From Streptomyces sp. P9-A4 (GTDB taxonomy: Bacteria > Actinomycetota > Actinomycetes > Streptomycetales > Streptomycetaceae), in NCBI RefSeq assembly GCF_036634195.1, contig NZ_JAZIFY010000001.1, positions 6,024,501 to 6,088,500 on the forward strand: DNA of 64,000 bases, in the 5' to 3' direction. The number at the start of each line of letters is the position of its first letter. The first letter of the stretch is position 1. Shown piece by piece: positions 2,802-17,692 of this stretch. Position numbers and translations under genes: made by a program. Under the pieces are notes generated by a model, which did no database searches, was not told the origin of the DNA, and saw nothing but the letters and a program-made list of their open reading frames with translations.

Positions 2802-2873
2802 ATGGCTGTCGTCACGACGGGCCTTGCCCTCACGCAGAAGCTCATCCACTCCACCTCCGTGGCCACCGGCTGA
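2802..2873 (+). CDS. Putative 23-aa leader peptide upstream of the rsgA fragment
   Basis: A short ATG-to-TGA frame of exactly 23 codons, ending 51 bases before the TTG start of the truncated rsgA. It aligns without gaps to the leader ORF at 16392-16463; ten of 23 residues are the same (Met1, Val3, Thr6, Gly7, Ala9, Gln12, Ile15, Thr18, Val20 and the final Gly23) although the DNA has clearly diverged. It is too short for statistics on its own, but the shared length, start, stop and position in two diverged copies argue that it is translated or that its translation matters for the downstream gene. No run of one amino acid that would mark classical attenuation is visible. Confidence 0.5.
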   Translation: MAVVTTGLALTQKLIHSTSVATG

Positions 2874-2898
2874 CCTCACCGTTCTCACACGCAGCGCC

Positions 2899-2923
2899 GG
2901 GGCCACCCCTGTGAAGGGTCCCC
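2899..2923 (+). promoter_or_regulatory. Shine-Dalgarno-sequestering hairpin, left copy
   Basis: GGGG, CC, ACCC, a loop, then GGGT and CCCC can fold into a two-part stem that hides the AAGGGT ribosome-binding site placed six bases before the TTG at 2925. The same arrangement, with a different loop sequence, precedes the intact rsgA at 16501-16524. The pairing arms are conserved while the loop is not, which suggests that the structure is selected. Confidence 0.5.
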
Positions 2924-2924
2924 C

Positions 2925-3389
2925 TTGTCTTTCCCGCTTTCCCCGAACACCTCTCTCTCCTCCTCCACCACTTCCGGCTCGACGCTCGACGCCCACGGCT
3001 GGGACTCGGGCTGGGCCGCCGCTTTTGCTCCGTACGCCGCCCAGGGCCTCGTCCCCGGCCGGGTCGTCCGGGTCGACCGCGGGCAGTGCGACGTCGCCAC
3101 CGCCGACGGGATCATGCGCGCCGACACGGCGTTCGTGACCCCGCACGACCCGCTCCGGGTCATCTGCACCGGCGACTGGGCCGCCGTCGACCCCGAGGGC
3201 GTCAACGACCCCCGGTACGTACGGGCGTGCCTGCCGCGTCGTACGGCCTTCGCGCGGTCCACCTCCTCCAAGCGGTCCGAGGGCCAGATCCTCGCGGCCA
3301 ACGTCGACCACGCCGTCATCACCGTCTCGCTCGCCGTCGAACTCGACCTCGGCCGCATCGAGCGCTTCCTCGCCCTGGCCTGGGAGAGC
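2925..3389 (+). pseudogene. Truncated rsgA (ribosome-dependent GTPase) 5' fragment
   Basis: From the TTG at 2925 about 155 codons match the N-terminal part of the intact RsgA at 16526: both read AAQGLVPGRVVRVDRGQCDV and later RSTSSKRSEGQ and ELDLGRIERFLALA. Similarity stops at codon AGC (3387-3389), right after WES; the frame then runs on into unrelated sequence to 3605. The OB-fold is present, but all GTP-binding motifs (GxxGxGKS, DTPG, SKAD) and the zinc-binding Cys/His cluster are missing, so it cannot act as a GTPase. Divergence from the intact copy is substantial, so this is not a recent perfect duplication; it may be the remnant of the resident or of an incoming rsgA allele. Confidence 0.85.
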
Positions 3390-3641
3390 GCGAGTAATAC
3401 GCAACAGTCCTCACCTGCACAGATGTGCTTCGGAGCGGCCAGATCCGTGGGGTATGAGGGTGCCACGATAAGGAAGACACAGACGATTTTCGACCGCCCG
3501 CAGCGGCGCCGCCCACGTCAAGGAAGCCCTGAACGCGCGGCTGTGCCCGAAGCCAGACCTGACCCTGCTCGCTTGTGCGCCGATGGCGAAGTCGGTCGCT
3601 CATGATGGGACCAGCCGGCCGGCAGGCTTTCCGGCTTCGAG

Positions 3642-4415: not shown

Positions 4416-4922
4416 CTATGAATGGCGCTCGCCATTCAATTCTCCGTGGACCCACGCTACGCACTCGGGGCGATTGCCTGATTCATTCCGGCAGAATTCC
4501 TCAAGCGCTGCTCGGATCTGGTTGACAGGGAGGGTGCTTCTTGGGTCGAAGAAGTACGGGACGCCAGGATCTGATACCACGCGCGGATCGAAATCTGGAG
4601 GATTCGGATTATCGGAGACCCAGATGTGTTCGGAGATCTCGTCCCTCGTGATCCGGTCCTGATTTGCAGACCAAACCAGACCGCCGTATCCAGACTCCGA
4701 ATTTACCGCAACCTGAAGGCAGTTGTCGGGCCACCAGTCGCGCACCGTCTCCGAGTGGCGCCGTTCGGCGAACATGAACGACGCGGTCTCTCCGGCGCTG
4801 ATCCATGGCCCACTACGGTCCTCATGCTGAAGATTCTCCAGGACCTCCGTGATTAGTGCAGATTTCCCGTTCCAATCATCGGCGTACTGGTATCGCCCGT
4901 GGATTATTGCGTTAAGGATCAT
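4416..4922 (-). CDS. Imm1 family immunity protein (cognate of Rhs deaminase toxin)
   Basis: A 168-residue acidic protein. The ATG at 4922 shares its ATGA with the stop of the Rhs toxin, so the two are translationally coupled; the longer frame reaching 5045 would overlap the toxin domain and is rejected. The pattern YADDWNGK near residue 12, GPWISAGETASFMFAER near 35-55, GYGGLVWS in the middle and HIWVSDNPNPPDFDPRVVSD is the Imm1 signature. In the polymorphic toxin literature Imm1 is the usual partner of SCP1.201-like deaminases, which agrees with the toxin encoded immediately upstream. It would act in the cytoplasm by binding the deaminase domain and protecting the producer and kin. The GC content is visibly lower than in flanking genes, typical of exchangeable toxin tips. 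Confidence 0.9.
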   Translation of the reverse strand: MILNAIIHGRYQYADDWNGKSALITEVLENLQHEDRSGPWISAGETASFMFAERRHSETVRDWWPDNCLQVAVNSESGYGGLVWSANQDRITRDEISEHIWVSDNPNPPDFDPRVVSDPGVPYFFDPRSTLPVNQIRAALEEFCRNESGNRPECVAWVHGELNGERHS

Positions 4923-7900
4923 GGCGCCGATCCCTCTCCATGTATTATCTTCGCAGCCTCCGCGCCAGGATACCAGACCTCCATTGTGTAACCGACGGGA
5001 AGGATCTTGGCAACTGCCCCTTGACAGCCGTACATGTCGCCACACACGCCCGCTTTATTGTTCATGACCACAGTGGCTGATTTCGTTCTCCCTTCGCGCA
5101 TTACCATGGCGTATTGCGCTTCGACGTGCTGCGCTGCCGGGTAATACTTCACCCTTGGGTTGATGGGTGCTCCGTGCTGCCTCAAGTACGCGTCGGTCGC
5201 TTGAACCAGAGGACTGTTTCCTCCGGCCTCAATCTCAGCGTGCATTTCCTTTGAGTTGCTAAACAGGCGCCCCGTCGTGACGCGCTTGTTCGCGAGTTCG
5301 CTCAATATCTGAGCAACATTGAGGCAGGTGTTGTGGACGAGGACTGGGGTCTGGCCGGCCAGCACGTAGTACGTGTGTAGATCGTCAACGGTGAAGTTGT
5401 ACGTCTTCACGTACTTCGTGAATGGAGCGTTTCTGTTGACGGCAACGGTCTTGCCCTTGTCGGTGAGCAGGGTCGTGCCTGGCTTCAGGTCCTTCGCGGC
5501 GATCCAAGCGTGCTGCGAGGCTGACCAGAAGGGGTGTTCGGAGGTTGCTGTGAGGGTCTCGGTGCCGTCGGGGGTGGCGATGGAGAGTGTGTTGAGGTGC
5601 TTGGTTTCCTCGGTGCGGATCAGCTGAGTGACGGGGCGGGCACCCGTTTCTCCGGTTTCGGGATCCGTTGCCAGGACCTCGTCGCCGATCTCGACGTCCT
5701 GGATCTCCTTTGTGCTGCCGTCGCCCATGAGGACGAGCGTGCCGGCGAGGAAGCAGTTGCCGCCGGGCAGCGGCGTTGTCTTGCGGGGCGTCGTTCCTGC
5801 CCCGCCGCCGGCGCGGCCGTGCGCGATCATTTCTCCGACGAAGCCCGGTACTTGGTACCAGTCGGATGTCGAGTCAACGCCTTGCTCGAGGACCCACTGG
5901 TCGAAGCTGGCGCCGTAGTCGCAGCCTGGGGCACCTGCTCCGCCGTTCCAGCAGTCGGAGTCGCCAAGCACTCCAAATAGTGATGATGTGTGGGCAGCGA
6001 TGCTGATCGTGCCCCAGAAAGCCTCGCTGAATGGATTTGACCAGGAGAGGTCGTAGCTTTCCGCAGGGGCAGCACGATTGGAACCGCCGCCGCCACCGCC
6101 ACCACCTCCGCCACCGGAGCTGGCTGTTCCAGATGCTTCTCCTGCCCCGGCTGTCACAGTCCCAACGTCAGTGCTGCCGCCCTGTGAGGGCTTCTGCACA
6201 TCCCCCGGGACTGTGCCTGTGAGTTCCACTCCGCTCGGGGTGCAGGAGTTTCCGGATGCCCCGCAGATCTCTCTGAGGCCGGTGGGGTCCGAGGAGGTGG
6301 TGGGGTGCTGGTTGGCGTAGCTATAGCCGTTGAGGGATTGGTGTTGGTCGGTTGAGAGGATGGGGTCGACGCTGATGAACTGGCCGATTTTCGGGTCGTA
6401 CTGGCGAGCCCCGACGTGCGTAAGGCCGGTGGTCTTGTCGGCGGTCTTGTTGAGGAAGGCCTTGTCTGTGGGCCAGGTGCCGACCGCGCCGCTGCGTTCT
6501 GCCCCAAAGGGAGTCATGTAGCGCTTGGTGGGCTTCTGCGTGGCATCCGAGCTGATGGCCAGGCTCTGAGTGCCGTGGTGGTCGCCTGCGAGGAACTGAA
6601 GCTGCGTTGTGCCGGTTTCGTTGGTGCGGACGGCGATTGGGGTGCCGTCGGCGGTGTAGCTGCGTTGGGCCCAGGTGGTGCCGTTGTCGCGGCGGTGGAG
6701 TTCCGTCGCGCCGGAGTACAGGACGCGTTCGCCGGCCTTGGTGTTGCGGATCAGCAGAGTGCCGTCAGCGTCGTACACGTAGTCGGTCGACTTGGTGCTT
6801 TCGGTAAGTGTGGTGAGCTGGCCTTCGGGCGACCAGGTCAGGTTCTGCTGTGCGGTGTCACTGGGACGCTTGGTGGTGTTGCCTGCTGTGTCGTAGTCGT
6901 AGACCTTGTCCTTGGCGGGGTCGGCGGCGGTGCCGCATGTGGTGCGCGGGGTGGTGTAGCGCAGTGCGTGCGGCTGCTTGGCCGGGTCGTAGCAGTACGT
7001 CGTGGCCGTGTTGCCTGTGGAGAGGTGCTGCGTCTCCGTCTTGCGCTGACCGGCTGTGTTGTAGGTGTACGACGTCCAGTACGGGGCGGGGCCGCCTAGG
7101 GCGCTGGCGTTGCGCGTATCGCCGCAGTTCTGGGAGGTCGGGGTCCAGGCTTCGGTCAGGCGGCTGTGGCCGTCGTAGGCGAAGCACTGGGTCTCGGCCT
7201 TGGTGGTGCCGCCGAGGATCGTGGGGTCGGCGATCGAGGTGACGTTGCCGGCCTGGTCGTAGGCATAGGTGAGGTGCTGCAGCATGTATGGGTGTGTCTG
7301 GTCCGTGACATGGCTGAGCGTCAGGCGGTCGGTTCCCTCCTCGTACCTGTTGGTGACGTAGACGTTGCGGTCACCTGCGCCGCCCTTGCCCAGGGTGAGC
7401 TGTAGAACCTGGCCGGTCTCGGAGTAGTCGGCCTGCTGCAGGTAGCCGTTGAGGCCCTTCACGGACGAGAGCTGGCCGAGGGAGCCGTAGCCGTACCCGA
7501 TGACCTCGCTCGCCAGACCGCCCAGAGCGGGCTCGCTGGTGCTGTCCACGCTTCCGTCGATGCGGTATGTGGACTGATAGGTGAGTTTCCCGCCCGGCAC
7601 GGACGGGGTGATCGGGTCCGTGGCGGGGAGGGTCAGCTCGGTCGTCGCGGGGCGGTCGAGGACGTCGTACGCCGTGACCGACTTGGTGTACGCCTTGCCG
7701 GTCTTGCCTCCGACGTAGCGGGTTGACGTGGCGGGAAGACCCTTGAGAGGGGTGTCGTAGGTGCGGCTCGTCAGGAGCGTGGCGTCCGATGCCATGCCCG
7801 ACCAGGTGTTGGTCGGACGGCCGAGAACGTCGTACCCGGTGACGACCGTGGAACTTCCGGTCGTCACCTTCACCGGCCGGTCAAGGCCGTCGTACTCGGT

Positions 7901-10900
7901 ACGAGTCGTACCCTTATCAGGGTCCTCCGTGGTCTTCTGCCGACCGTACTGGTCGTAGAAGTACTTCCACACGGCGCCGTCCGGCCCCGTGATCTTCGAC
8001 TGCTTGCCGTCACGGGTGTACTCGAACTCCGTCGAGGTGTACGAACTTCCGAGCGTTGCCCCGTACTCGGCGTCCGCCGGGCTAGGACCCGCGTACGCAC
8101 GGGTCTCGATCGTCCGGCCGAGGGCGTCGGTGATCGCACGCGTTGCGGAACCGCCGTCGAGCGCGGTGGTGGCGGTGGAGTCGCCGGTGTAGGTGGTACT
8201 GGTAGTCCACTTCAGCGTGCCCTTGACGTACAGGGCATTGGACGTGGGCCGCCCTGCACCGTCGAAGACCGTCTCGGTCTGCTTCGGTGCTCCTCCGTAC
8301 ATCGCCCGCGCGTACTTCGAACCCGGTACGTTCGTGTCGAAGACGTCGGAGTAGGTGGCGTAGACGCTTCCCAGGGTGTTGTAGCGGGCGTCCGTCAAGA
8401 GACGTCCGCCCTGAGGGGTCGGGGTCTGTGTCTGAAGCGGTCGCAGTAGCGAGTCGTAGATCGCGTAGCTCGTGTTGTACGTTTCCCCGTCGGCCTTGAG
8501 GCTCGCGGTCGAGACCCAGGACTCTGTGGTGTTGCTGAGCGAATACCTGTACTGGGTGTTGGGCAACTGTGTGCTGCGGTTGCGGTTCGGCAACCACACG
8601 TCGGTCAGACGACCCATCGCGTCGTACGCGAGCTCGGTCTTCTTCAGGTTCGCGTCGTAGGTGCGCTGGGCCAGGCCACGCCGCGGGTCGAGATAGCTCG
8701 TGACCTTGTGCGTCAGGGGATTGGTGACGGTCGTTCTCGTCAGCGGACCTGAGTCCACGGGCGAGTACGCCGTGGTCATGGTGCTTCCCTGCGCGTCGGT
8801 GACCGTGGTGGGCCGGCCGAGGGTGTCGTAGGCGGTGACGCTGGTCTTCTGCCACGTCACAGCTCCGCCGGTGCCGTATGCGGAGGCGCGTCCGGTCCAT
8901 GTGGGAAGACCCTTGACCGGCTTCATCGTCGTGGACCAGGCGATGTCGTCGTAGGAGATCGCCGTATCGGCCATGACGTTGGACCGAGTGCCGTCGGCCG
9001 CGGCGAGCTGAAGATCGGCTTCCTTGTACCCGCAGTTGAGGCCCACAGTGCGCACACGCGAGACGAGATTGGTCAACCCTGCTTCGGCATTGCGGGCGTA
9101 CCAGGTCTCGGTGCAGACCTCGTCGCCCGACTTGTCCTCGTCACCCAGGTCGACAGCCTCGGTGGGCATGCCGTAGTCGTCGAACGAGACGGTCGACGTG
9201 GCGCGTGAGCGCCAGGAGCTGGATGCGGTGAGGTAGGTGTAGGACGTCGTGCGCTGGGTGCGGACGAAGCGGGAGACATGATCGCCGGCGTCGGGGACAG
9301 CGGATTGGCGCGCGGTTTCGCGCGACCAGGGCAGGTTAGCCGTCGCGGAGATCGGAGCTGCACCGTCGTAGGTCACCTGCTCGCGCAGCGTTCCCGCGTA
9401 GTAGTCAGTGTCCGGCACCGAGGCGAGTCCGATTGCTGGCTGCGTGAGCGGGGCGATCGACACGGACTTGGTCGTGCCGTTCTTGTTCCTGTCGTCGTGC
9501 ATGCCCTGCATGTAGAGCGACACGGTCTTGGTTCGGTTGACTCCGGTTCTGACCGCACCCTTGTAGACCGTGACCTCACGGAATCCGCGCCAGTCCGACC
9601 AGGTCCGCTCGTCCTCCGGCGTGAACGGGTCATCGTTGTAGTGCCAGGCAGCGCCGCTGTAGACGTACTGGTTCTCGACGGGCTCGTTCCAGCCCGCCAG
9701 GTCGGACGTGAGGACGCCGATCACACGGTACTTGTGGAACCAGTCGACCGATGCCGTGGAACTGCCATTGATGTTCCAGTACTGCGGATAGCAGTTCCGG
9801 GTGTTGGTGTCCTCGGCAGCAGTGAGAACCTGGCTGCGTACGCACTCCGCAGGGGACATCTCCACGGTGGTGATGCCGCCGGTCTCGGAGACGATCGTGC
9901 GGATGCGAGGGCGGGTCAGAGCCAGGATGTGGTCGGCGTTGTCATCCACGCGGTTCGGACGCATGTCGTAGGTGAAGACCAGCGGGTTCGACTTGATGGC
10001 GGTCGTCCCGGCTTTTGCGGTCTGTGTGATCGACTTCAGTGTGAGGACGTGGTCGGAGGTGTCACCGATGTCGCCTCCGTCCTGGTACTCCTGAACGAGG
10101 TCCCAACTGTCGACCGCGTCGTAGGTGCCTGTGGTCGCGTTCCACGAGTGAGTGTCGATGCCGGTCAGCCGCTTGCGGGTGAAGAACGAGGGCGACTGGG
10201 ACAGACACTCGGCGGAACCACTGGCGCAGATGGCATCGAAGGGCACGTCCGGCCAGGTCTCGGCCGTCTCCTTCGTCAGCGACGAGCATGCTCCCTCCGT
10301 GCAGCGCTCGGCGTATCCGAAGGTCACCTTGGCGTCCGCGTCGTCCGTGAACAGGGCACCCTTACGAAGGCCGTACTTGATCTCCTTCAGGTACCCGCCG
10401 CGTACGTATTCGGCATCGGCCTTGGTGGCCTTGTTCTTCTTGTAGTAGTTCTTCTCTGCCGTGTACCAGTAAGTAGTGGCGTTCCCGTGGGTGTCCTCGA
10501 CGTAGTCGAGGTTCCAGCGCCAAGCCTGAGTCGCCGACTGCTCGGCGAACGTGGTACCCGCGTCGTGTCCGGGCTCACCGGCGTCGTCGCCGAATACGGG
10601 CGTGGTCCAGGTGGAATTGGTGCGCTCGGTGGTGGCGCCGTCGAGTTTGTCACGGCCGAATACGTACTTCGTGCCGTTGCCGGTGATGACGGTCCAGTAC
10701 TCGCCGTTGTCATCCTTGTTGTCGGCGCCGATGGAACGGGTCACCTTCGACGCGTCGTCGTTTTCCAGCTTCCACTCGCTGGTGGCGGCAGTCGGGTTCG
10801 TCGCGTCAGCCTTCACCAGGCGCGAGGATTTGCCGTTCAGCACGATCCGTGCGTTGTCGTACTTCCAGCAGCGGTCGAACACACCCGTGTGTCCGTCTTT

Positions 10901-12010
10901 GTCGCAGCTGCCATACGAGCGTTCGATGTAGGACTCGGTGAGGGAGAAGCCTTCACCGATGGAGGTTCCCTGGTTGTTCGTGGTCGCGGTGCGCCCATCG
11001 ATGCTGCCTGAGTCGTAGCCGAGACTCAGGGAAGGGGTCGGACCCGCGGCTGCAGGCGGGAGAGTGAAACCGTACGACCAGGTGAACGAGCCGGAGCTGC
11101 CTCCGGCGGACCACGAGGACGAGGCTGAAAGCGGTGTCGCGCTGTAGTCACCGGTGCCGTTCGGCGCTGCGCCATCGGCGCCGGCTGCGGTCAGGGCCAT
11201 GACTGTCGCGCCAGAGGCCGAGGACCCGAGCTGGGGTTTGACGCCCCCTCCGTCGGTACTCTGGGCGAGAGCGACACGGGAGGTGACCGTCTGGTTCCTC
11301 GGGTCGTTGCGCGAAGGAAGGGGGGTTTGGGTCCGGCACTCGGCCTTCTGCGGCGTGGTCAGGGAGCACGCCGGGAGTTGCACTAGCCGGAGTCGGCCGG
11401 CCCAGCCGCCTCCGATGGCGGACGCGAAACCGCCGTAGCCGACGCTCACCTCGGCCCCGCCGGCTCGTTGTGCCTCGGCGGTCAGCACAACTCCGGATAT
11501 CCCGAGTTGGTCCGCGACCTTCTGGTCCAGCACCGTGACCGTTGCGTTGCCGTTCGCCCGGAGAGCGTTCCTGGCGCCGGAGGGAGCGAGGGTGATGGGC
11601 AGGCCGCCGGGTGCGACCTTGGTGCGCCCGGCCGATAGTGTGACATCGGCATTGCCGGCCGCGGGCCAGGCCGGTCGCAGCTGCTCGGCCCGGGCGCGCA
11701 TCACCTGGATCGTGCTCTCCTGCAGTTCCTTCGCAACCTGTTCCCGGGCCTTTTTGGCGCCCGGGCCCGAGCCCTCATGGATCTTGCCGACCCGAGGCTT
11801 GGGCACGTCCGGTCGGCCCAGGCCGCGTGTGCCTTCGGCAGCTACAGGGGTAAGCCCGATCGGGATCGACAGCGCCAAGGCCAGAGGCACGATGACGAGC
11901 GCTCTGCGGCGTCTACGCCGCGGCCTTCCCTCTCGCGCACTTGTCCTGCCTATTACGGGTTTCACAGATACTCTCCCCGCCCCTTCGAACTGCGGATTGA
12001 TAGAAGCCAT
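4919..12010 (-). CDS. Rhs/YD-repeat polymorphic toxin with HINT and DddA-like cytosine deaminase tip
   Basis: 2363 residues from the ATG at 12010, which has AAGGAG six bases upstream; a longer in-frame ATG at 12073 lacks such a site and falls in a hairpin. Order: basic N-terminus (RRRRRR) and hydrophobic signal segment ending near PVAA; a long secreted N-terminal region; RHS/YD repeats from about residue 1000 to 1850; the RHS core end (YDPKIGQFISVDPI, about 1877); a glycine run near 1973; a HINT (intein-like autoprocessing) domain from CFLAGTLVLMGDG to VLVHN (about 2090-2227); and a 136-residue tip. The tip has HVEAQ (about 2294), MREGRTKSATVVMNN and VCGDMYGCQ, then ILPVGYTMEVWYPG: the His-x-Glu and paired zinc cysteines of SCP1.201-like double-stranded-DNA cytosine deaminases such as DddA. 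The cysteine spacing is C-x5-C, not the C-x2-C of Burkholderia DddA. Predicted to kill competitors by C-to-U editing of DNA. Confidence 0.9.
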   Translation of the reverse strand: MASINPQFEGAGRVSVKPVIGRTSAREGRPRRRRRRALVIVPLALALSIPIGLTPVAAEGTRGLGRPDVPKPRVGKIHEGSGPGAKKAREQVAKELQESTIQVMRARAEQLRPAWPAAGNADVTLSAGRTKVAPGGLPITLAPSGARNALRANGNATVTVLDQKVADQLGISGVVLTAEAQRAGGAEVSVGYGGFASAIGGGWAGRLRLVQLPACSLTTPQKAECRTQTPLPSRNDPRNQTVTSRVALAQSTDGGGVKPQLGSSASGATVMALTAAGADGAAPNGTGDYSATPLSASSSWSAGGSSGSFTWSYGFTLPPAAAGPTPSLSLGYDSGSIDGRTATTNNQGTSIGEGFSLTESYIERSYGSCDKDGHTGVFDRCWKYDNARIVLNGKSSRLVKADATNPTAATSEWKLENDDASKVTRSIGADNKDDNGEYWTVITGNGTKYVFGRDKLDGATTERTNSTWTTPVFGDDAGEPGHDAGTTFAEQSATQAWRWNLDYVEDTHGNATTYWYTAEKNYYKKNKATKADAEYVRGGYLKEIKYGLRKGALFTDDADAKVTFGYAERCTEGACSSLTKETAETWPDVPFDAICASGSAECLSQSPSFFTRKRLTGIDTHSWNATTGTYDAVDSWDLVQEYQDGGDIGDTSDHVLTLKSITQTAKAGTTAIKSNPLVFTYDMRPNRVDDNADHILALTRPRIRTIVSETGGITTVEMSPAECVRSQVLTAAEDTNTRNCYPQYWNINGSSTASVDWFHKYRVIGVLTSDLAGWNEPVENQYVYSGAAWHYNDDPFTPEDERTWSDWRGFREVTVYKGAVRTGVNRTKTVSLYMQGMHDDRNKNGTTKSVSIAPLTQPAIGLASVPDTDYYAGTLREQVTYDGAAPISATANLPWSRETARQSAVPDAGDHVSRFVRTQRTTSYTYLTASSSWRSRATSTVSFDDYGMPTEAVDLGDEDKSGDEVCTETWYARNAEAGLTNLVSRVRTVGLNCGYKEADLQLAAADGTRSNVMADTAISYDDIAWSTTMKPVKGLPTWTGRASAYGTGGAVTWQKTSVTAYDTLGRPTTVTDAQGSTMTTAYSPVDSGPLTRTTVTNPLTHKVTSYLDPRRGLAQRTYDANLKKTELAYDAMGRLTDVWLPNRNRSTQLPNTQYRYSLSNTTESWVSTASLKADGETYNTSYAIYDSLLRPLQTQTPTPQGGRLLTDARYNTLGSVYATYSDVFDTNVPGSKYARAMYGGAPKQTETVFDGAGRPTSNALYVKGTLKWTTSTTYTGDSTATTALDGGSATRAITDALGRTIETRAYAGPSPADAEYGATLGSSYTSTEFEYTRDGKQSKITGPDGAVWKYFYDQYGRQKTTEDPDKGTTRTEYDGLDRPVKVTTGSSTVVTGYDVLGRPTNTWSGMASDATLLTSRTYDTPLKGLPATSTRYVGGKTGKAYTKSVTAYDVLDRPATTELTLPATDPITPSVPGGKLTYQSTYRIDGSVDSTSEPALGGLASEVIGYGYGSLGQLSSVKGLNGYLQQADYSETGQVLQLTLGKGGAGDRNVYVTNRYEEGTDRLTLSHVTDQTHPYMLQHLTYAYDQAGNVTSIADPTILGGTTKAETQCFAYDGHSRLTEAWTPTSQNCGDTRNASALGGPAPYWTSYTYNTAGQRKTETQHLSTGNTATTYCYDPAKQPHALRYTTPRTTCGTAADPAKDKVYDYDTAGNTTKRPSDTAQQNLTWSPEGQLTTLTESTKSTDYVYDADGTLLIRNTKAGERVLYSGATELHRRDNGTTWAQRSYTADGTPIAVRTNETGTTQLQFLAGDHHGTQSLAISSDATQKPTKRYMTPFGAERSGAVGTWPTDKAFLNKTADKTTGLTHVGARQYDPKIGQFISVDPILSTDQHQSLNGYSYANQHPTTSSDPTGLREICGASGNSCTPSGVELTGTVPGDVQKPSQGGSTDVGTVTAGAGEASGTASSGGGGGGGGGGGSNRAAPAESYDLSWSNPFSEAFWGTISIAAHTSSLFGVLGDSDCWNGGAGAPGCDYGASFDQWVLEQGVDSTSDWYQVPGFVGEMIAHGRAGGGAGTTPRKTTPLPGGNCFLAGTLVLMGDGSTKEIQDVEIGDEVLATDPETGETGARPVTQLIRTEETKHLNTLSIATPDGTETLTATSEHPFWSASQHAWIAAKDLKPGTTLLTDKGKTVAVNRNAPFTKYVKTYNFTVDDLHTYYVLAGQTPVLVHNTCLNVAQILSELANKRVTTGRLFSNSKEMHAEIEAGGNSPLVQATDAYLRQHGAPINPRVKYYPAAQHVEAQYAMVMREGRTKSATVVMNNKAGVCGDMYGCQGAVAKILPVGYTMEVWYPGAEAAKIIHGEGSAP

Positions 12011-12037
12011 GGGCTCCTTGCCCTGGCTTTGAAAAGC

Positions 12038-12077
12038 AGGAGTGGGCGGCACCAGGCACCCGGTGCCGCCCACTCCT
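12038..12077. terminator. Strong hairpin between the LamG gene and the Rhs toxin
   Basis: A 16-bp perfect stem (arms AGGAGTGGGCGGCACC and GGTGCCGCCCACTCCT) with an 8-base loop fills the intergenic space. On the minus strand it starts 16 bases after the LamG stop, is followed by CTTTTC, and ends 28 bases before the Rhs start codon. It looks like an intrinsic terminator placed inside the operon, so toxin expression would need read-through, processing, or its own promoter. Confidence 0.75.
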
Positions 12078-12092: not shown

Positions 12093-15000
12093 TCAGGAAC
12101 CGATCAGCGCGGTGATCTGGGTCTCGTTGTGTACAGCTCCCGACCACACCCGTATGTCGGATACGCGGGCTGCGAGGAAGTGCTTCCAGGTTCCGGCGGA
12201 CAGCCCCTTGGCGATTGTGAGCTCTCCGGTGCCGAGTTTGGCCGTGAACGTCTTCGGAACAGCGTCGAGCTCCGTGCCGACGCGGAGTGAGATCGTGCCG
12301 TCCTGGGCGTCGTACACCCCGGTCAGGCGGACAGGGGTATCCAGTTCGGACTCCTTGTCGGACCGGACCGAAGAGAAGGTGCCATCCGTGTTGAGCCGCC
12401 CGAAGTGCCAATAACCCACTGGCACTTCTTTCTCGACCATGTCCTTCGTTCCATCCGGGAGCGTGATCTCGACAAGGTCCAGCTTGGTCTCAGCGGCTTG
12501 GTACCACAAACCCCAGGCCGAGCCGTCCGCTGTGCGCTGCCCGAGAACCTGGCCGACATAGCCAACGCTCTTCGCGTTGATCTTGGTCTTGTCCAGAGCC
12601 ACCTGAGTCGTCACCGTGAACGACCCCGTGTCATCGACCAACGGGCCCTTGTACGTAGCAGAGTCGTCGACGCCGTCGAAAACGAGGTCCTCGCCGTCCC
12701 CCGTGGCGCCGCCCGCCAGCGTCAGAGCCTTGCCGTATCCGGATGACGTGTCGGCGACTGTCGTTCCGGAGGCTCCGCCAGGGGACCAGTCGGCCACGAG
12801 TTCGGCCGCGTTGAAGCCGCCCGGCAGGAGGGCGCTCGCCTCATCAAGGATGTCCGAGGCATCCACCTTGCTCTGCCAGACGTTGACCTCGTCGATCGAA
12901 CCTTTCCAATGGTCGTAGTACGCACCACGCCACCAAGCTCGACCAATCTGGAACTTGCCCGTGGACGTCCACGACGGGGCCACCTGGTCCGTTCCCTGGA
13001 GCTTGCCGTTGACGTAGAGGGTGATCTCTGTGTTGGTAGCGTCGTAGACGGCTGCGAGATGAGTCCACACGCCGAGGGTGGCCAGCTCCTTGGACTGCAC
13101 GAACTGGGTGGTCAGGTTGCCGTCCGTGGCATCCTTCGGCGAGGTGCGGATCTCCCACTTCCCCGACTCAGAGCGATACCCAAGGTAGAAGGCGCTGTAC
13201 CAACCGCCGGTCATCGTGCCGTCCTGGCTCAGCGCCGTTTGATTCTGGCTACCGTCCTCCAACCTGACCCAGGCGGAAATCGTGTAGGAAGAGCCGGTCG
13301 TCACTACGGGCCCGGCGGTGGAGGCATAGCCGGTGGTGCCGCCGAGTGAAAGGCCCGTGTCCACCACCTGCGGATCCAGAAGCGCCCCGTCCTTGTCATG
13401 GGTGATCACTCCTTGGCGGCCGCGATTGTCGCGAGTCACGGCCCCGTACAAGGTCGCGTGGGACAAACCCCCGTCCGGTGCGTTGTCGAGTGCCGCGCCG
13501 GATGTCTCCGTGAACTGCCATCGGCCGACAGGATCAGCTCCCTTGGCGACTCTGAAGTCATGTGCCGCCTGGGTGCCCCATCGCCCTTGCGGGTCCTCGG
13601 CTCGGACGAGGAGCGTGTACGTACCGGCCGCGGGTGGCTTGATCGTCACCGTTGCAGTTGAACCAGCCACTTCAGCCCAGTAGCCGTTGGAGAGGCGGTA
13701 GTGGTACGACACGACGGTGTCGCCGGCGGCAGGCTTGAAGGAAACCGTGCCAGGTACGCCAGGGGCGCCGTAGAAGGGACAGCTGTTTGGATCGGAACAC
13801 GGCTTGTAAGGGCTTCCGAAGGTGACGATGGGTGCCTTCGGCGCCGTCGGGTCGACCATGAAGTAGCACCAGGGCGCATACCCCGAGGCAGATGCCTGGA
13901 CGTTGGCGTCGGTGAATACTTGGGTGGCGGCCGAGTAGCGGTAGAGGCGCCCCTCGGTCAGCTTCGTGGGCCACAGTGCCGTGGTCTTCCAGTTGTCCGG
14001 GACAGTGCTGGTACTCGGACTCGCCATACCACTGCCGGACCAGACGCCGTCAGAAACCCAATACTCAAGGCGCATCCACGTCCTCAGTTTGGCCTGAGCC
14101 TCGCCGCCAGGAGCAGTCTGCGGGGTTGCGGTAAAAGTGGGCTGCGGAGAGTCCAATATTGCCGGGTCCGCACCGTCGGTGTCGCATATCCGGCTGCTAC
14201 CGCTCACGATGCCGACGTTGGTCGGCAATGCCGGTTTGGCGACGTACAGCACCCTCAGGACCGCGTCATTCCTGAAGCGCTTCCACGCCGAGGTGTCAGT
14301 CTCACTCCCCGCCCGGAGCTCCAACGTCAGCCGCGAGAACTTGCCGGCTGCGAAGGCCTGCACCGTTGGCGTGAGGTTCTCGTTCGGTTCCTGCGGGTTG
14401 TCGTTGAACTCGATCGGAGCGTCAGGAGAGTCCGGATCACACAGCGATCCGCGTCCGGCGGACACCCACAGATCGGCCATCCAGTCGAGCTCGGCGGGCC
14501 GGGACGCCCAGGTGGTGGCCGAGGAGATGTTGTTCGTTCGAACCAGGTCAACCTGCCGGGGATCGCACTGGAAGGACCACGGCTCGGTCACCGCGAACGT
14601 AGCGTCCAGCACCTGCTTGCCCTTGAGGTTGTCAGGAGCGAACTCGAAGTACAGACGCTGAACGTAGCCGGGGCCGCAGTAGTAGCCGTTCCAGCTGCCG
14701 CATTCGCCGACGCCCTGACCGCGCTCGTCGTCGCCGTTTCCCCACAAATAGGACTCGTAACCGTCGTTGCGAAGCAATGTCCGCTCCGACTCACCCCACG
14801 TCACTGTCGGGTCGATGAACAACGGGTAGTCCTCGGACGCGGTACTGCTGAGCATCCCGGCGTCCGGAACGACAGTGAGCGCATCTGCCTTGACATCGAC
14901 ATCCATGCGGGCGACGTTGTCACCCTGCCCCGGCTGCAGGCCGGTACCGGAAGGAGCCAGTTCAGACGGGTCGGCAGGACCCGACGGCGCGTCATTCGCC

Positions 15001-15797
15001 GCTACGACAGTCTGCCGCACCAGCTGTGGCGCCAAGCCAGGCGCGTCATCAACCTTTCCGGCCGAGTCCCACATTCGAGCCGGCGGAGCACGGAAGACAG
15101 TGGCCCCGCTGCCGTCGACTGCAGCAAGACTCCCGGCAGCACCTTCCCGAACAGTCAGGGCATGTGCCTTCAGACCGAAAGTGAGCTTCTTGAGTGCCGG
15201 GTTCGCCGCTGCTGCCGGCGTCTTGACCACCAGTACTTGCTGGAAGCTCTCAACTGTCGCGGTCAGCTTCAGGTCGACGTCAGGCAGCACATCGTGGTAG
15301 ACCGCGTTCGCTCCGTCGACTTCAGGAACTGGCAGATCGCCCGGCCAATCGAGCTGAAGCGAGCGACCGCGATCGGCGATCTCGACCAGCGGGGCAGCGC
15401 TGCCACCCCCAGAGAACGACATCGCCGCAGACGCGGCTTTGGGGCCAATCGACCCGTCCTCACGCCGCTCCAGCGTCGGGTCCGGCACCTGCCAGCCGCC
15501 GCCGGGTTTCGCTACGCGCACCGGCACCGTGTGCTGCTCCAACGTGAAAGTGAACCCGTCGGGGTTCGCGAACACGCTTGCTCGCTCGGAGCGCTTGCTC
15601 TCGACCTCGACACGCTGGCCGGACTCCCTCGCCGTCTCCAGTGCGAGGTCCGCCTCGCCAAGAACGGGCGAATCAACGGTTGGCGCGGCTGCCCGTGCAG
15701 CAGGAGATGGAACCACCAACCCCATGGCCAAAGCTGACAGGGCGACTCTCGTGCTCCAGGCACGTCGAAACGCCCGACGTCTCTTCACAATCTCCAC
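12093..15797 (-). CDS. Large secreted LamG-domain protein, partner of the Rhs toxin
   Basis: 1234 residues. The N-terminus has basic residues (KRRRAFRR) then a hydrophobic stretch ending in PAARAAAP, a signal peptide. Residues 40-330 resemble the all-beta N-terminal region found in Streptomyces wall proteins that accompany Rhs toxins. The centre carries a DNRP-type cysteine-containing beta region (CDPRQVDLVRTNNISSATTW) and an Ig-like segment with an SYHYRLSNGYWAEV core. Two concanavalin/LamG jellyroll domains follow: about 790-980 (VGRWQFTETSGAALDNAPDG) and about 1000-1225 (ADWSPGGASGTTVADTSSGYG). It precedes the Rhs gene in the same direction, 82 bases apart. A role in delivery or surface anchoring of the toxin is inference. 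Alternative: an independent glycan-binding wall protein. Confidence 0.85.
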   Translation of the reverse strand: MEIVKRRRAFRRAWSTRVALSALAMGLVVPSPAARAAAPTVDSPVLGEADLALETARESGQRVEVESKRSERASVFANPDGFTFTLEQHTVPVRVAKPGGGWQVPDPTLERREDGSIGPKAASAAMSFSGGGSAAPLVEIADRGRSLQLDWPGDLPVPEVDGANAVYHDVLPDVDLKLTATVESFQQVLVVKTPAAAANPALKKLTFGLKAHALTVREGAAGSLAAVDGSGATVFRAPPARMWDSAGKVDDAPGLAPQLVRQTVVAANDAPSGPADPSELAPSGTGLQPGQGDNVARMDVDVKADALTVVPDAGMLSSTASEDYPLFIDPTVTWGESERTLLRNDGYESYLWGNGDDERGQGVGECGSWNGYYCGPGYVQRLYFEFAPDNLKGKQVLDATFAVTEPWSFQCDPRQVDLVRTNNISSATTWASRPAELDWMADLWVSAGRGSLCDPDSPDAPIEFNDNPQEPNENLTPTVQAFAAGKFSRLTLELRAGSETDTSAWKRFRNDAVLRVLYVAKPALPTNVGIVSGSSRICDTDGADPAILDSPQPTFTATPQTAPGGEAQAKLRTWMRLEYWVSDGVWSGSGMASPSTSTVPDNWKTTALWPTKLTEGRLYRYSAATQVFTDANVQASASGYAPWCYFMVDPTAPKAPIVTFGSPYKPCSDPNSCPFYGAPGVPGTVSFKPAAGDTVVSYHYRLSNGYWAEVAGSTATVTIKPPAAGTYTLLVRAEDPQGRWGTQAAHDFRVAKGADPVGRWQFTETSGAALDNAPDGGLSHATLYGAVTRDNRGRQGVITHDKDGALLDPQVVDTGLSLGGTTGYASTAGPVVTTGSSYTISAWVRLEDGSQNQTALSQDGTMTGGWYSAFYLGYRSESGKWEIRTSPKDATDGNLTTQFVQSKELATLGVWTHLAAVYDATNTEITLYVNGKLQGTDQVAPSWTSTGKFQIGRAWWRGAYYDHWKGSIDEVNVWQSKVDASDILDEASALLPGGFNAAELVADWSPGGASGTTVADTSSGYGKALTLAGGATGDGEDLVFDGVDDSATYKGPLVDDTGSFTVTTQVALDKTKINAKSVGYVGQVLGQRTADGSAWGLWYQAAETKLDLVEITLPDGTKDMVEKEVPVGYWHFGRLNTDGTFSSVRSDKESELDTPVRLTGVYDAQDGTISLRVGTELDAVPKTFTAKLGTGELTIAKGLSAGTWKHFLAARVSDIRVWSGAVHNETQITALIGS

Positions 15798-16391
15798 CCC
15801 TGCTTAACGCAACGCTCACAGTAGGTGGGTCACCCAACGGTGTGATCAACGGCAGGTCAAGGCGCGTTCAGTGAATATGGCAAGTTGAGCGAGGAGCGTA
15901 GGAGTCCGGCGCCCTGCATCAGGTCGAACGCGTACATCGCCTCTCTGGATGCAACCCGACATGCGCGGAGGTGCGCATCGGGTTCCGGCTGTCGGACTTC
16001 CCGAGCTGGGTGCGATCTTCCTTCTGTCGGCTTCACCGGAACTCGCTGCTGAGCTGACCGCATTGGCTGCTGTCCTGGACACGGCGGCTGTTCCGGCCGT
16101 GGGTGCCGCGGTACGAACCGGTGGAGTTCACCACGCGCTCCGGGATCGCCGTGGGCTCCCGGCGGCCGGTCATTGAGGCGGCGGGCCGTAAGTCCTCGCT
16201 CAGGATGCTCTACGGCTCGCGCGTGATGTTGGTCCGCCGGCTGTCGGCGTTGTCCAGGTGAGGCCCGAATTTAATCAGTGGTGCCGTGTCCTGGGGTGGG
16301 GCTATGGTTCTGCTCGTTCCAAGGCGCGGCTGTGCCGCTGCCCAGGGCATGGTGTTGGTTCGTTGAGGAGAAGCAGGAGGTGAGGACATTG
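15798..16391. other. Gene-poor gap with unrecognised coding debris
   Basis: About 590 bases between the LamG start and the rsgA leader. The first part should contain the promoter and 5' UTR of the LamG-Rhs operon. On the plus strand an open stretch ending at 16260 reads FRPWVPRYEPVEFTTRSGIA then VIEAAGRKSSLRMLYGSRVM before TGA; on the minus strand one ending at 15870 reads ASREAMYAFDLMQGAGLLRS then SLNLPYSLNAP. Neither has a plausible start with a ribosome-binding site and I cannot assign a family. They look like tails of genes broken when the island formed. The bases after 16270 probably hold the promoter of the rsgA leader transcript. Confidence 0.4.
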
Positions 16392-16463
16392 ATGACTGTC
16401 ACGGTGACGGGCTCTGCCCGCATTCAGGAGTTCATCGTTCCCACCCCTGTGGTCTCCGGCTGA
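16392..16463 (+). CDS. Putative 23-aa leader peptide of rsgA
   Basis: ATG-to-TGA frame of 23 codons starting MTVTVTGSARIQEF and ending VVSG, preceded by AGGAGGTGAGG, a strong ribosome-binding site. It ends 62 bases before the TTG start of rsgA. The same 23-codon frame with ten identical residues lies before the truncated rsgA at 2802. A translating ribosome on this ORF would end just ahead of the hairpin that covers the rsgA ribosome-binding site, so the arrangement suits translational coupling, attenuation by ribosome stalling, or sensing of ribosome state; which one cannot be decided from sequence. Confidence 0.6.
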   Translation: MTVTVTGSARIQEFIVPTPVVSG

Positions 16464-16500
16464 CACCCACTCCACTTCCGCGCGCTCGGAGCGCGCTGCC

Positions 16501-16524
16501 GGGGCCACCCTTCGAAGGGTCCCC
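16501..16524 (+). promoter_or_regulatory. Hairpin covering the rsgA ribosome-binding site
   Basis: GGGGCC-ACCC-TTCGAA-GGGT-CCCC: ACCC (16507-16510) pairs with GGGT (16517-16520), extended by GGGG with CCCC across a CC bulge. The Shine-Dalgarno AAGGGT is half of this stem and lies five bases before the TTG start. The paired arms are kept in the left copy at 2899-2923 while the loop differs. Expected effect: low rsgA translation unless the structure is opened. Confidence 0.6.
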
Positions 16525-16525
16525 C

Positions 16526-17692
16526 TTGTTCAACGCTTCGCTCCACCCGTCTTCTCTTTCCGCTGTCCAGCACCCGCTCGCCGTCTACGGCTGGGACGAG
16601 GGCTGGGAGGCCGAGTTCGCCCCGTACGCCGCTCAGGGTCTGGTTCCGGGCCGGGTCGTCCGGGTCGATCGCGGTCAGTGTGATGTGGCCACCCCTGACG
16701 GCGTCGTCCGTGCCGATACCGCGTTCGTCGTTCCTCATGACCCGATGAAGGTCGTGTGCACGGGGGACTGGGTCGCCATCGATCCCGAGGGCCGTGACCC
16801 GCGGTACGCGCGGACGATCCTGCCTCGGCGGACCGCCTTCGTCCGGTCGACGTCGTCCAAGCGTTCCGAGGGCCAGGTGCTGGCCACCAACATCGATCAC
16901 ATCGTCATCTGTGTGTCGCTCGCGGTCGAACTCGACCTCGGGCGGATCGAACGGTTCCTCGCGCTCGCGATGTCCAGTTCGAGCGGTGAGGCACTGCTGC
17001 GTAAGTCGGCGAACTCCTGGGAGTCCGGTGCCCAGCCGACCGTGGTCCTCAGCAAGGCGGACCTCGTCCCCGACCCGACCGGCCTCTCGTACCTCGTCGA
17101 GGACGTCGAGACGGTCGCCCCCGGCGTCCAGGTGCTGCCCCTCAGCTCGGCCACGGGCGAAGGACTCGACGTGCTCTCCGCCGTCGTCGCGGGCGGCACG
17201 ACCGTGCTGCTCGGCGTCTCCGGCGCCGGGAAGTCCACCCTCGCCAACGCCCTCGTCGGCGAGGACGTGATGGACGTCCGAGCCGCCCGTGACATCGACG
17301 GCAAGGGCCGCCACACCACCACCACCCGTAACCTCTTCGCCCTGCCGGGCGGGGGAGTCCTCATCGACACCCCCGGACTGCGCGGCGTCGGGCTCTGGGA
17401 CGCCGAGGCCGGCGTCGGGCAGGTCTTCGCCGAGATCGAGGAACTGTCCCGGGACTGCCGCTTCCACGACTGCGCCCACGAGGCGGAGCCGGGCTGCGCC
17501 GTCGCGGCGGCGATCGAGGACGGCTCCCTGCCGGTCCGCCGGCTGGAGAGCTACCGCAAGCTGATCCGCGAGAACCGGCGGCTCGTGGCCAAGACCGACG
17601 CCCGGATGCGCACCGAGATGCTCAAGGACTGGAAGCGCAAGGGCGCCGAGGGGCGCCAGGCGATGGAGCTGAAGCGGGGGCGCGTCCGCTGA
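16526..17692 (+). CDS. rsgA: Ribosome small-subunit-dependent GTPase A (RsgA/YjeQ), intact copy
   Basis: 388 residues from the TTG at 16526. RsgA is a circularly permuted GTPase that tests late 30S maturation at the decoding centre. An N-terminal OB-fold (about residues 30-120) is followed by the permuted GTPase domain: G4 SKAD near 177, G1 GVSGAGKST near 230, switch/G2 threonines in KGRHTTTTR, G3 DTPGLRG near 283, and the C-terminal zinc site CRFHDCAHEAEPGC near 310. Compared with the left fragment, a 48-base in-frame insertion (16970-17017) places 16 residues between FLALA and WES. The leader ORF and hairpin suggest translational control. Streptomyces usually have another rsgA linked to aroA, so this is probably the second paralogue (from memory, moderate confidence). 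Confidence 0.93.
   Translation: MFNASLHPSSLSAVQHPLAVYGWDEGWEAEFAPYAAQGLVPGRVVRVDRGQCDVATPDGVVRADTAFVVPHDPMKVVCTGDWVAIDPEGRDPRYARTILPRRTAFVRSTSSKRSEGQVLATNIDHIVICVSLAVELDLGRIERFLALAMSSSSGEALLRKSANSWESGAQPTVVLSKADLVPDPTGLSYLVEDVETVAPGVQVLPLSSATGEGLDVLSAVVAGGTTVLLGVSGAGKSTLANALVGEDVMDVRAARDIDGKGRHTTTTRNLFALPGGGVLIDTPGLRGVGLWDAEAGVGQVFAEIEELSRDCRFHDCAHEAEPGCAVAAAIEDGSLPVRRLESYRKLIRENRRLVAKTDARMRTEMLKDWKRKGAEGRQAMELKRGRVR
16970..17017 (+). other. 48-bp in-frame insertion inside rsgA
   Basis: Encodes MSSSSGEALLRKSANS between FLALA and WES. In the truncated paralogue at 3376-3389 FLALA is followed directly by WES, so the 16 residues are an insertion in this copy or a deletion in the other. It falls just before the strand leading to the SKAD nucleotide-binding motif. 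Length is a multiple of three and the frame is intact, so the protein can still be functional. Confidence 0.7.

Follow-up and report, generated by a model that had tools for sequence, protein, structure and literature searches.

A candidate ribosome-mediated attenuator before rsgA in Streptomyces, with a short leader reading frame, two mutually exclusive RNA pairings, and a second occurrence before a methyltransferase-acetyltransferase gene

Does the short open reading frame (ORF) that precedes rsgA in Streptomyces sp. P9-A4 control the synthesis of the 30S maturation GTPase encoded downstream, and is it the peptide, the RNA, or the act of translation that counts? A sequence-only reading of the window, that is, of the whole stretch of 64,000 nucleotides analysed here, had described two rsgA copies and proposed that translation of a conserved 23-codon leader reports the state of the ribosome and gates RsgA synthesis. 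Its description of the two copies was borne out: the leaders at 16392-16463 and 2802-2873 each comprise 23 codons and a stop, with 10 of 23 residues identical, and in both copies AAGGGT lies in the 3' arm of a ribosome binding site (RBS) hairpin associated with a TTG start (16501-16528 and 2899-2927). According to our analysis, leader translation very probably gates rsgA, as judged from a conserved ORF next to a covarying RBS hairpin, although the peptide itself is not conserved. The earlier reading overlooked the key feature, namely that the tail of the leader (segment A) can serve as an alternative partner of the 5' arm of that hairpin (segment B).

The leader, the candidate switch and the gene

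The elements of the rsgA locus are the following.

16271-16308, plus strand: WblC/WhiB7-like promoter, with box TTAATC (AT-rich), -35 TGGTGC at 16279-16284 and -10 TATGGT at 16303-16308
16376-16380, plus strand: leader Shine-Dalgarno (SD) sequence GGAGG
16392-16463, plus strand: leader ORF MTVTVTGSARIQEFIVPTPVVSG and stop, 23 codons plus stop; TTG at 16389 is an alternative start giving 24 codons
16409-16419, plus strand: candidate small hairpin in the leader, GGGC-TCT-GCCC, codons 6-10, with modest support
16449-16460, plus strand: segment A, putative anti-sequestor, last four leader codons GTGGTCTCCGGC
16480-16496, plus strand: spacer hairpin GCGCGC...GCGCGC, which differs among loci
16498-16508, plus strand: segment B, GCCGGGGCCAC, partner of A or (16501-16510) of C and the bases after C
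16515-16520, plus strand: segment C, the rsgA SD sequence AAGGG(T) within the putative sequestor hairpin
16523-16528, plus strand: CCCTT (16523-16527), which runs into the TTG start codon (16526-16528) and could pair weakly with AAGGG
16526-17692, plus strand: rsgA, stress-type paralogue, 388 amino acids (TIGR00157, PF03193)

The 388-amino-acid product scores 136 bits against TIGR00157 (curated cut-off, 100) and 145 bits against PF03193, and a script read the start codon of the gene as TTG in 199 of 200 loci. For the leader, the in-frame TTG at 16389 has the usual 8-nt spacing from the SD sequence. An N-terminally extended RsgA was rejected as a reading of this region, the upstream open frame being very variable across genomes. 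The host genome (7.5 Mb) encodes one other full RsgA, of 337 amino acids (locus L001), which begins three bases past an upstream ORF that we take, by eye, to be AroA, so that no space is left there for a leader. On the minus strand the window also carries a 2384-amino-acid ORF (4919-12073) with C-terminal pretoxin-HINT and DddA-like deaminase domains, resembling a polymorphic toxin, and a 1234-amino-acid ORF (12093-15797) with a concanavalin-like lectin (Laminin_G_3) domain.

Rfam covariance models found nothing at gathering score in the window and nothing at E ≤ 1 in 16300-16600, and whole regions folded as single sequences are not unusually stable (z about -0.5); the signal is comparative and does not lie in the fold stability of each region. 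We collected 170 Streptomyces loci, in which some genomes are present in two collections, from 60 regions among the matches listed, 30 given loci, and the best 80 of 216 relatives. A script recovered the leader together with its SD sequence and the RBS in 163 of the 170 fetched loci (153 distinct), so the conservation of the leader exceeds chance. Inspected by eye, the seven loci missed by the script include two that look intact (L105, L121), two in which the leader is frameshifted near its end with the tail sequence kept (L022, L141), and three in which it is degraded or absent (L062, L066, L132). Most of the 163 leaders have 23 or 24 codons, with a range of 19 to 27 according to the start chosen. 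Of the fixed 23-codon frame without indels that had been expected, the frame is retained in most loci, but the lengths vary and the two frameshifted loci depart from it.

The substitution pattern of the leader is the reverse of that of the gene. In 72 sequences with full genes, pS is 0.19 and pN is 0.32 in the leader, against 0.43 and 0.12 in the gene body, and omega reaches 1.9 in the leader, where synonymous sites are constrained, versus 0.21 in the rsgA body. The dN/dS check that had been suggested for the leader therefore fails at the level of the peptide. Entropy over leader codons 2-19 in the same 72 sequences is 0.52 at third positions, 0.85 at first, and 0.81 at second positions, the gene body behaving in the opposite way (0.86, 0.33, and 0.25, respectively), and when 18 comparably variable columns were drawn 5000 times from the body, the third-position conservation of the leader was never equalled. 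Since third positions are the more conserved and omega is 1.9, the peptide does not look like the main target; as far as these comparisons go, selection acts mainly on something else, and it would seem that the RNA and the act of translation matter, with peptide identity seemingly dispensable.

Pairing accounts for part of this synonymous constraint. At codon -4 (counted from the stop), Val is encoded by GTG at 122 of 122 Val codons in 131 leaders, a codon that makes up 34.5% of Val in 103 rsgA bodies, and Val beside codon -4 is GTC or GTT in 44 of 44 cases. T-ending codons are kept at codon 2 in 101 and at codon 8 in 103 of the 106 leaders of 23 codons, compared with 0.8% GCT and 0.9% ACT among synonyms in rsgA bodies. 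In the Streptomyces loci T-ending codons are also common at codon 4, irrespective of the amino acid. The candidate leader hairpin explains those at codons 2, 4, and 8 in part only. Within the leader, mutual information singles out the pair 6.2-10.2 of this hairpin (2 of 2000 shuffles), and the rest of the signal looks like phylogeny. An overlapping frame as the cause of the third-position constraint is disfavoured: in the 131 leaders, sense frame +1 is open in 44%, +2 in 93%, and antisense frame 0 in all, with residue entropy in the last of 1.34 versus 1.57, and openness of antisense frame 0 is expected from high GC3.

Two mutually exclusive pairings around the rsgA start

Segment A is complementary to B (GCCGG.GGCCAC) over 11 bp, and B doubles as the 5' arm of the hairpin holding AAGGGT (segment C); because both use B, the pairings A:B and B:C are mutually exclusive. 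B starts 34 nt past the leader stop in the window, with a median of 33 nt and a range of 11 to 61 nt over 192 loci, in 14 of which the distance is only 11 to 19 nt. A local hairpin AAGGG..CCCTT across the start codon can form in 174 of 200 loci.

From 179 candidate segments reaching from the leader tail to the rsgA start we obtained an alignment of 133 sequences (A1), with 37 Streptomyces rows dropped as near-duplicates by eye and nine further rows (L182, L184, L189, L208, L214-L216, L226, and L228), seven of which pair worse, first left out; a 142-row alignment restores these nine. For A:B, 98.3% of the 1451 cells of A1 are paired, with 21 double-change cells and 0 of 500 shuffles as high, and slid versions reach at most 65%; with 142 sequences, 96.9% of cells are paired, with 24 double-change cells and again 0 of 500 shuffles as high. 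Counted by whole pairs, those changed on both sides (3 of 11) do not exceed the shuffles in the rsgA set (48 of 500, or 76 of 500 with 142 rows). Two variable pairs give Fisher p values of 2.5e-5 and 0.003 when rows are treated as independent; where the second base of A is C instead of U, B carries G in 14 of 15 (p 2.5e-5, on the same treatment of rows). This base has undergone at least 12 changes on the RsgA tree (122 of 125 rows kept), on which a tree-aware sign test of A:B covariation was not significant. Scrambled-tail controls of duplex energy discriminate poorly in RNA this GC-rich.

The pairing B:C is formed in 98.7% of cells and has both-sided changes at three pairs (4 of 500 shuffles); on 142 rows the figures are 97.2% of cells and 9 of 500 shuffles. 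The covarying stem positions predicted earlier for the RBS hairpin are thus present as double changes, but a one-column slide, used as control, is still about 80% paired with an equal covariation score. The RNAalifold consensus contains B:C unprompted; A:B is missing from it, and its place in the tail is taken by a local hairpin of five pairs. What is found, then, has the structural features of a ribosome-mediated attenuator, i.e., a conserved short ORF with its own SD sequence and two exclusive structures, one of which uses the ORF region.

A remnant copy, a second gene, and spread beyond Streptomyces

The other copy in the window had been taken as a second working example of the leader, which its present state contradicts.

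2802-2873, plus strand: remnant leader MAVVTTGLALTQKLIHSTSVATG and stop; no promoter match, SD altered
2859-2927, plus strand: remnant switch, RNA intact, with A at 2859-2870, B at 2896-2906, SD at 2914-2918 and TTG at 2925-2927
2925-3386, plus strand: rsgA fragment, first 154 codons, ending after GCCTGGGAG

The WblC-type promoter pattern is absent before this leader and present in relatives with the same leader type, the leader SD sequence reads CGAAG, not GGAGG, and the similarity to RsgA ends at codon 154; on its sequence, the 2802 copy is a decayed remnant. Its switch RNA is matched at 2847-2930 with 85.1 bits by R1, a covariance model built from A:B. A second rsgA in another Streptomyces (genome G307, locus L323) is cut at the identical point and followed by a resolvase-domain ORF (PF00239), and the window sequence past the rsgA cut (2925-3460) resembles the stretch preceding that ORF in L323. 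The shared cut point and the resolvase-domain ORF suggest that rsgA may be the attachment site of an integrating element.

Of 41 Streptomyces genomes, 37 have an R1 match with E < 1e-9, located at rsgA in every case where coordinates are comparable; five of these also have a second site with E ≤ 1.3e-5, the host genome included (C1:6461509-6461608, minus strand, E 2e-8). An exact-motif search of the host genome returned only the two rsgA copies, and a plasmid search with the element gave no match. A weak additional R1 match (L133:1439-1553, E 2e-4) precedes the rsgA site of that locus by about 800 nt. According to Pfam, the gene after the second site encodes a fusion of a SAM methyltransferase with a GNAT acetyltransferase, and 32 of 101 genomes have a match to it with E ≤ 1e-60. 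In the host gene the match stops after residue 319, where the frame seems shifted (L336, L352).

We read 28 of 30 methyltransferase loci, and 27 of these 28 upstream regions contain a leader starting with (L)MT, 22 to 28 codons long from its ATG. By eye, most of the loci keep the pairing of tail and B in other letters (for instance GGGUC:GGCCC, GGGUC:GACCC, GGGCUC:GAGCCC, and CCGGCCG:CGGCCGG), and the tail pairing exceeds 95% of scrambled tails in 8 of 27. Many of these leaders (L339-L367) also show a hairpin around codons 6-12, such as GCUGCC...GGCAGC, with changed pairs in L341, perhaps the counterpart of the GGGC-GCCC hairpin of rsgA leaders. In a combined alignment of 62 sites (A2), 7 of 11 A:B pairs are changed on both sides, with 62 double-change cells and 0 of 500 shuffles as high, the double-change count being favoured because the rows were picked for variety and the alignment being fitted to the model; slid versions are at most 54.5% paired. 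One row of A2 is the odd second match in L133, and the source L353 gave no match. A WblC-type promoter was detected in none of the 28 methyltransferase upstream regions, so the module can occur without it. On 61 genomes, a broader model, R2, gave matches at rsgA and at the methyltransferase gene wherever coordinates are comparable. No third gene class was recognised among these, and other matches, for example those in G008, G010, G036, G045, G055, and G058, or the weaker ones may yet include one. As the same module stands before an unrelated methyltransferase-acetyltransferase gene, the circuit is not peculiar to RsgA, although RsgA may still regulate its own synthesis.

Homologues of the 388-amino-acid protein with E ≤ 1e-20 occur in at least 194 of 199 genomes of the genus, where a few matches, such as G089, G192, and G207 at E about 1e-21, are probably the other RsgA paralogue, and in 117 of 121 genomes of the family, covering 16 of 17 genera. 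Across the class, a homologue with E ≤ 1e-45 occurs in 108 of 246 genomes. A separate short leader ORF, picked by eye and without a chance control, precedes the gene in 34 of 49 loci of other families, with peptides unlike the Streptomyces leaders; of the other 15, six have leaders that overlap the gene start and nine have no leader in the stretch read. In these families 12 of 34 loci have a pairing of tail and B better than 95% of scrambled tails, most clearly those of family f17, and overall own pairs outperform swapped ones (p 0.007); families f9, f4, and f18 gave no signal for this pairing. Among 53 loci from other or divergent members of the host family, 16 lack a recognisable tail motif, and in 9 of these 16 the leader reaches or overlaps the rsgA start. 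As read from their sequences, the switch in these 16 loci is lost or differently built.

Promoter, predicted direction of the switch, and relation to known systems

Of 154 distinct Streptomyces regions, 83 carry a WblC-type promoter pattern ahead of the rsgA leader, compared with 1.0 in local shuffles, the pattern having been drawn up after the regions were read. A second test used the published form, in which GAAAWY stands three bases ahead of the -35 and a -10 is present; it matched 40 of the 154 rsgA regions (0.1 in shuffles) and 18 of 49 regions in other actinomycete families (0.2). The box of the window, TTAATC, deviates from the published GAAAWY. The rsgA mRNA probably starts at this predicted promoter. 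Given the two-paralogue pattern and the adjoining Ada/AlkA gene, the rsgA of the window is probably the orthologue of SCO6149 of S. coelicolor, whose neighbours presumably include such a gene as well. Binding and activation by WblC, with dependence on tetracycline, are reported for SCO6149, and not for SCO5211, among the RsgA paralogues of S. coelicolor (PMC7157823).

The conservation of the leader, the two exclusive covarying pairings, the synonymous constraint, the WblC-type promoters, and the second gene are directly supported, and on them we build a reading towards which we lean on balance, a ribosome-mediated attenuator in which full translation of the leader shuts rsgA and impaired translation opens it. 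The mRNA from the WblC-type promoter would carry the short leader ORF with its strong SD sequence. A ribosome that reaches the leader stop would cover A, B would then pair with C, and rsgA would be shut; in most loci a ribosome finishing the leader would not reach B, leaving it free to sequester C. If leader translation were absent or halted early, by an inhibitor or for want of competent ribosomes, A would pair with B, the SD sequence would be left with a weak local hairpin only, and rsgA would be translated. The leader peptide itself would not be the effector. We infer that the leader is translated, and likewise the polarity, the trigger, and the choice between a translational and a transcriptional readout. 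In energy models of 154 sequences, covering A leaves the segment from SD to start harder to open in 117 and easier to open in 8 than placing a ribosome at the start of the leader does, the mean opening energies being 8.8 and 7.3 kcal/mol (a difference of about 1.5), and scrambling A makes it harder to open in 115 and easier in 3. The probability that the SD sequence is unpaired is low in all states; it is slightly higher with A covered (0.16, versus 0.09 in the early state, which is the higher in only 18 of 154), because the SD sequence can pair with CCCTT in the A:B state, and so does not support the proposed polarity. The polarity is thus a prediction with modest support from modelling and from the analogy with wblC.

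This unpaired-probability model would fit the opposite polarity, in which leader translation activates rsgA by coupling, through melting of the SD hairpin or reinitiation, as would the 9 of 53 loci with a leader that reaches or overlaps the rsgA start and the 14 of 192 in which B is at most 19 nt past the leader stop. The footprint of a terminating ribosome is too short to reach B at the distance found in most loci, and the opening-energy model points the other way, so we deem this reading unlikely. An arrest sensor of the erm type, responding to the nascent peptide or to a specific drug, could draw on the near-invariant positions V3, G7, A9, V20, and G23 of the leader; however, V20 and G23 lie inside A and G7 and A9 inside the candidate leader hairpin (V3 is not so accounted for), nonsynonymous divergence exceeds synonymous divergence with omega at 1.9 and no conserved arrest peptide, and leader peptides are very different in other families and at the methyltransferase loci, which makes such a sensor improbable. 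That ORF and hairpin are a functionless chance combination agrees with the unremarkable fold z-scores of whole regions, but is scarcely credible in view of the 163 of 170 loci, the covariation, and the second gene.

Transcription attenuation is a more serious, if still minority, possibility. Here B:C would act as an intrinsic terminator, its hairpin standing ahead of a U-rich tract, and A:B as the antiterminator, as described for wblC; the polarity would be the same with another readout, which could coexist with translational control. In the 12 nt past the rsgA start codon, T makes up 45% and G 7% over 200 loci; between +100 and +160 the values are 15% and 41%, and 11 other putative genes of the window have 11% T in the corresponding 12 nt. 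At least 5 of the 8 nt from the start codon onwards are T in 121 of 200 loci, and wblC and are5sc are described as working in this way (PMC12421871, PMC11550727). On the other hand, at most 4 T occur in the remaining 79 loci, the window copy has 4 T in its 8-nt stretch with no terminator-like site called in 16200-16640, and B:C, which overlaps SD and start, is kept in nearly all aligned rows.

The translational attenuator that we favour can be set beside several known systems. Erm-type translational attenuators possess a leader ORF, exclusive hairpins, and an SD sequence sequestered in one state, and the rsgA switch is like them in all three; it differs in that its leader peptide is unconserved and that opening is predicted whenever the tail is free, not from a stall at a single codon. 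Closest in regulon is the uORF transcription attenuator of wblC/whiB7, also of actinomycetes and of the same drug-response regulon, in which uORF translation shuts the downstream gene (PMC11550727, PMC12421871); at rsgA, another gene, the putative sequestor overlaps SD and start codon, and the tail of the leader would itself be the anti-sequestor. The amino-acid leader attenuators of Streptomyces (trpL, leuL, ilvL, and others) likewise have a short leader ORF and an RNA that folds in alternative ways, yet the rsgA leader has no run of a single residue and none is described before rsgA in the accessible parts of these reports (PMC8079986, PMC1262725). In S. coelicolor, the antibiotic-responsive uORFs of are5sc and tiaA encode leaders of 3 and 9 residues before ABCF genes and act through terminator/antiterminator folds (PMC12421871); the rsgA switch would share uORF control in the same genus, with a leader of 23 codons and a gene that is not ABCF.

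A literature search, with subscription journals largely outside its reach, returned no description of this leader or switch. What appears to be new, as judged from the alignments, is the use of the leader's own tail as anti-sequestor, with a seemingly dispensable peptide, and the occurrence of one module at two unrelated genes. The module gives the impression of an RNA switch that can be reused and that senses how well translation runs. More speculatively, it may be a stand-alone, peptide-independent sensor of translation capacity that reads ribosome loading and finishing, is reused before unrelated genes with different promoters in much of the actinomycetes, and at rsgA would couple a 30S maturation GTPase, by feedback, to how many competent 30S subunits are available. 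The RNA model already indicates a second target gene. If the reading is true, control of a ribosome assembly factor by the performance of ribosomes would be directly testable in Streptomyces, and the WblC/WhiB7 drug-tolerance response would have an extra layer that acts after transcription start.
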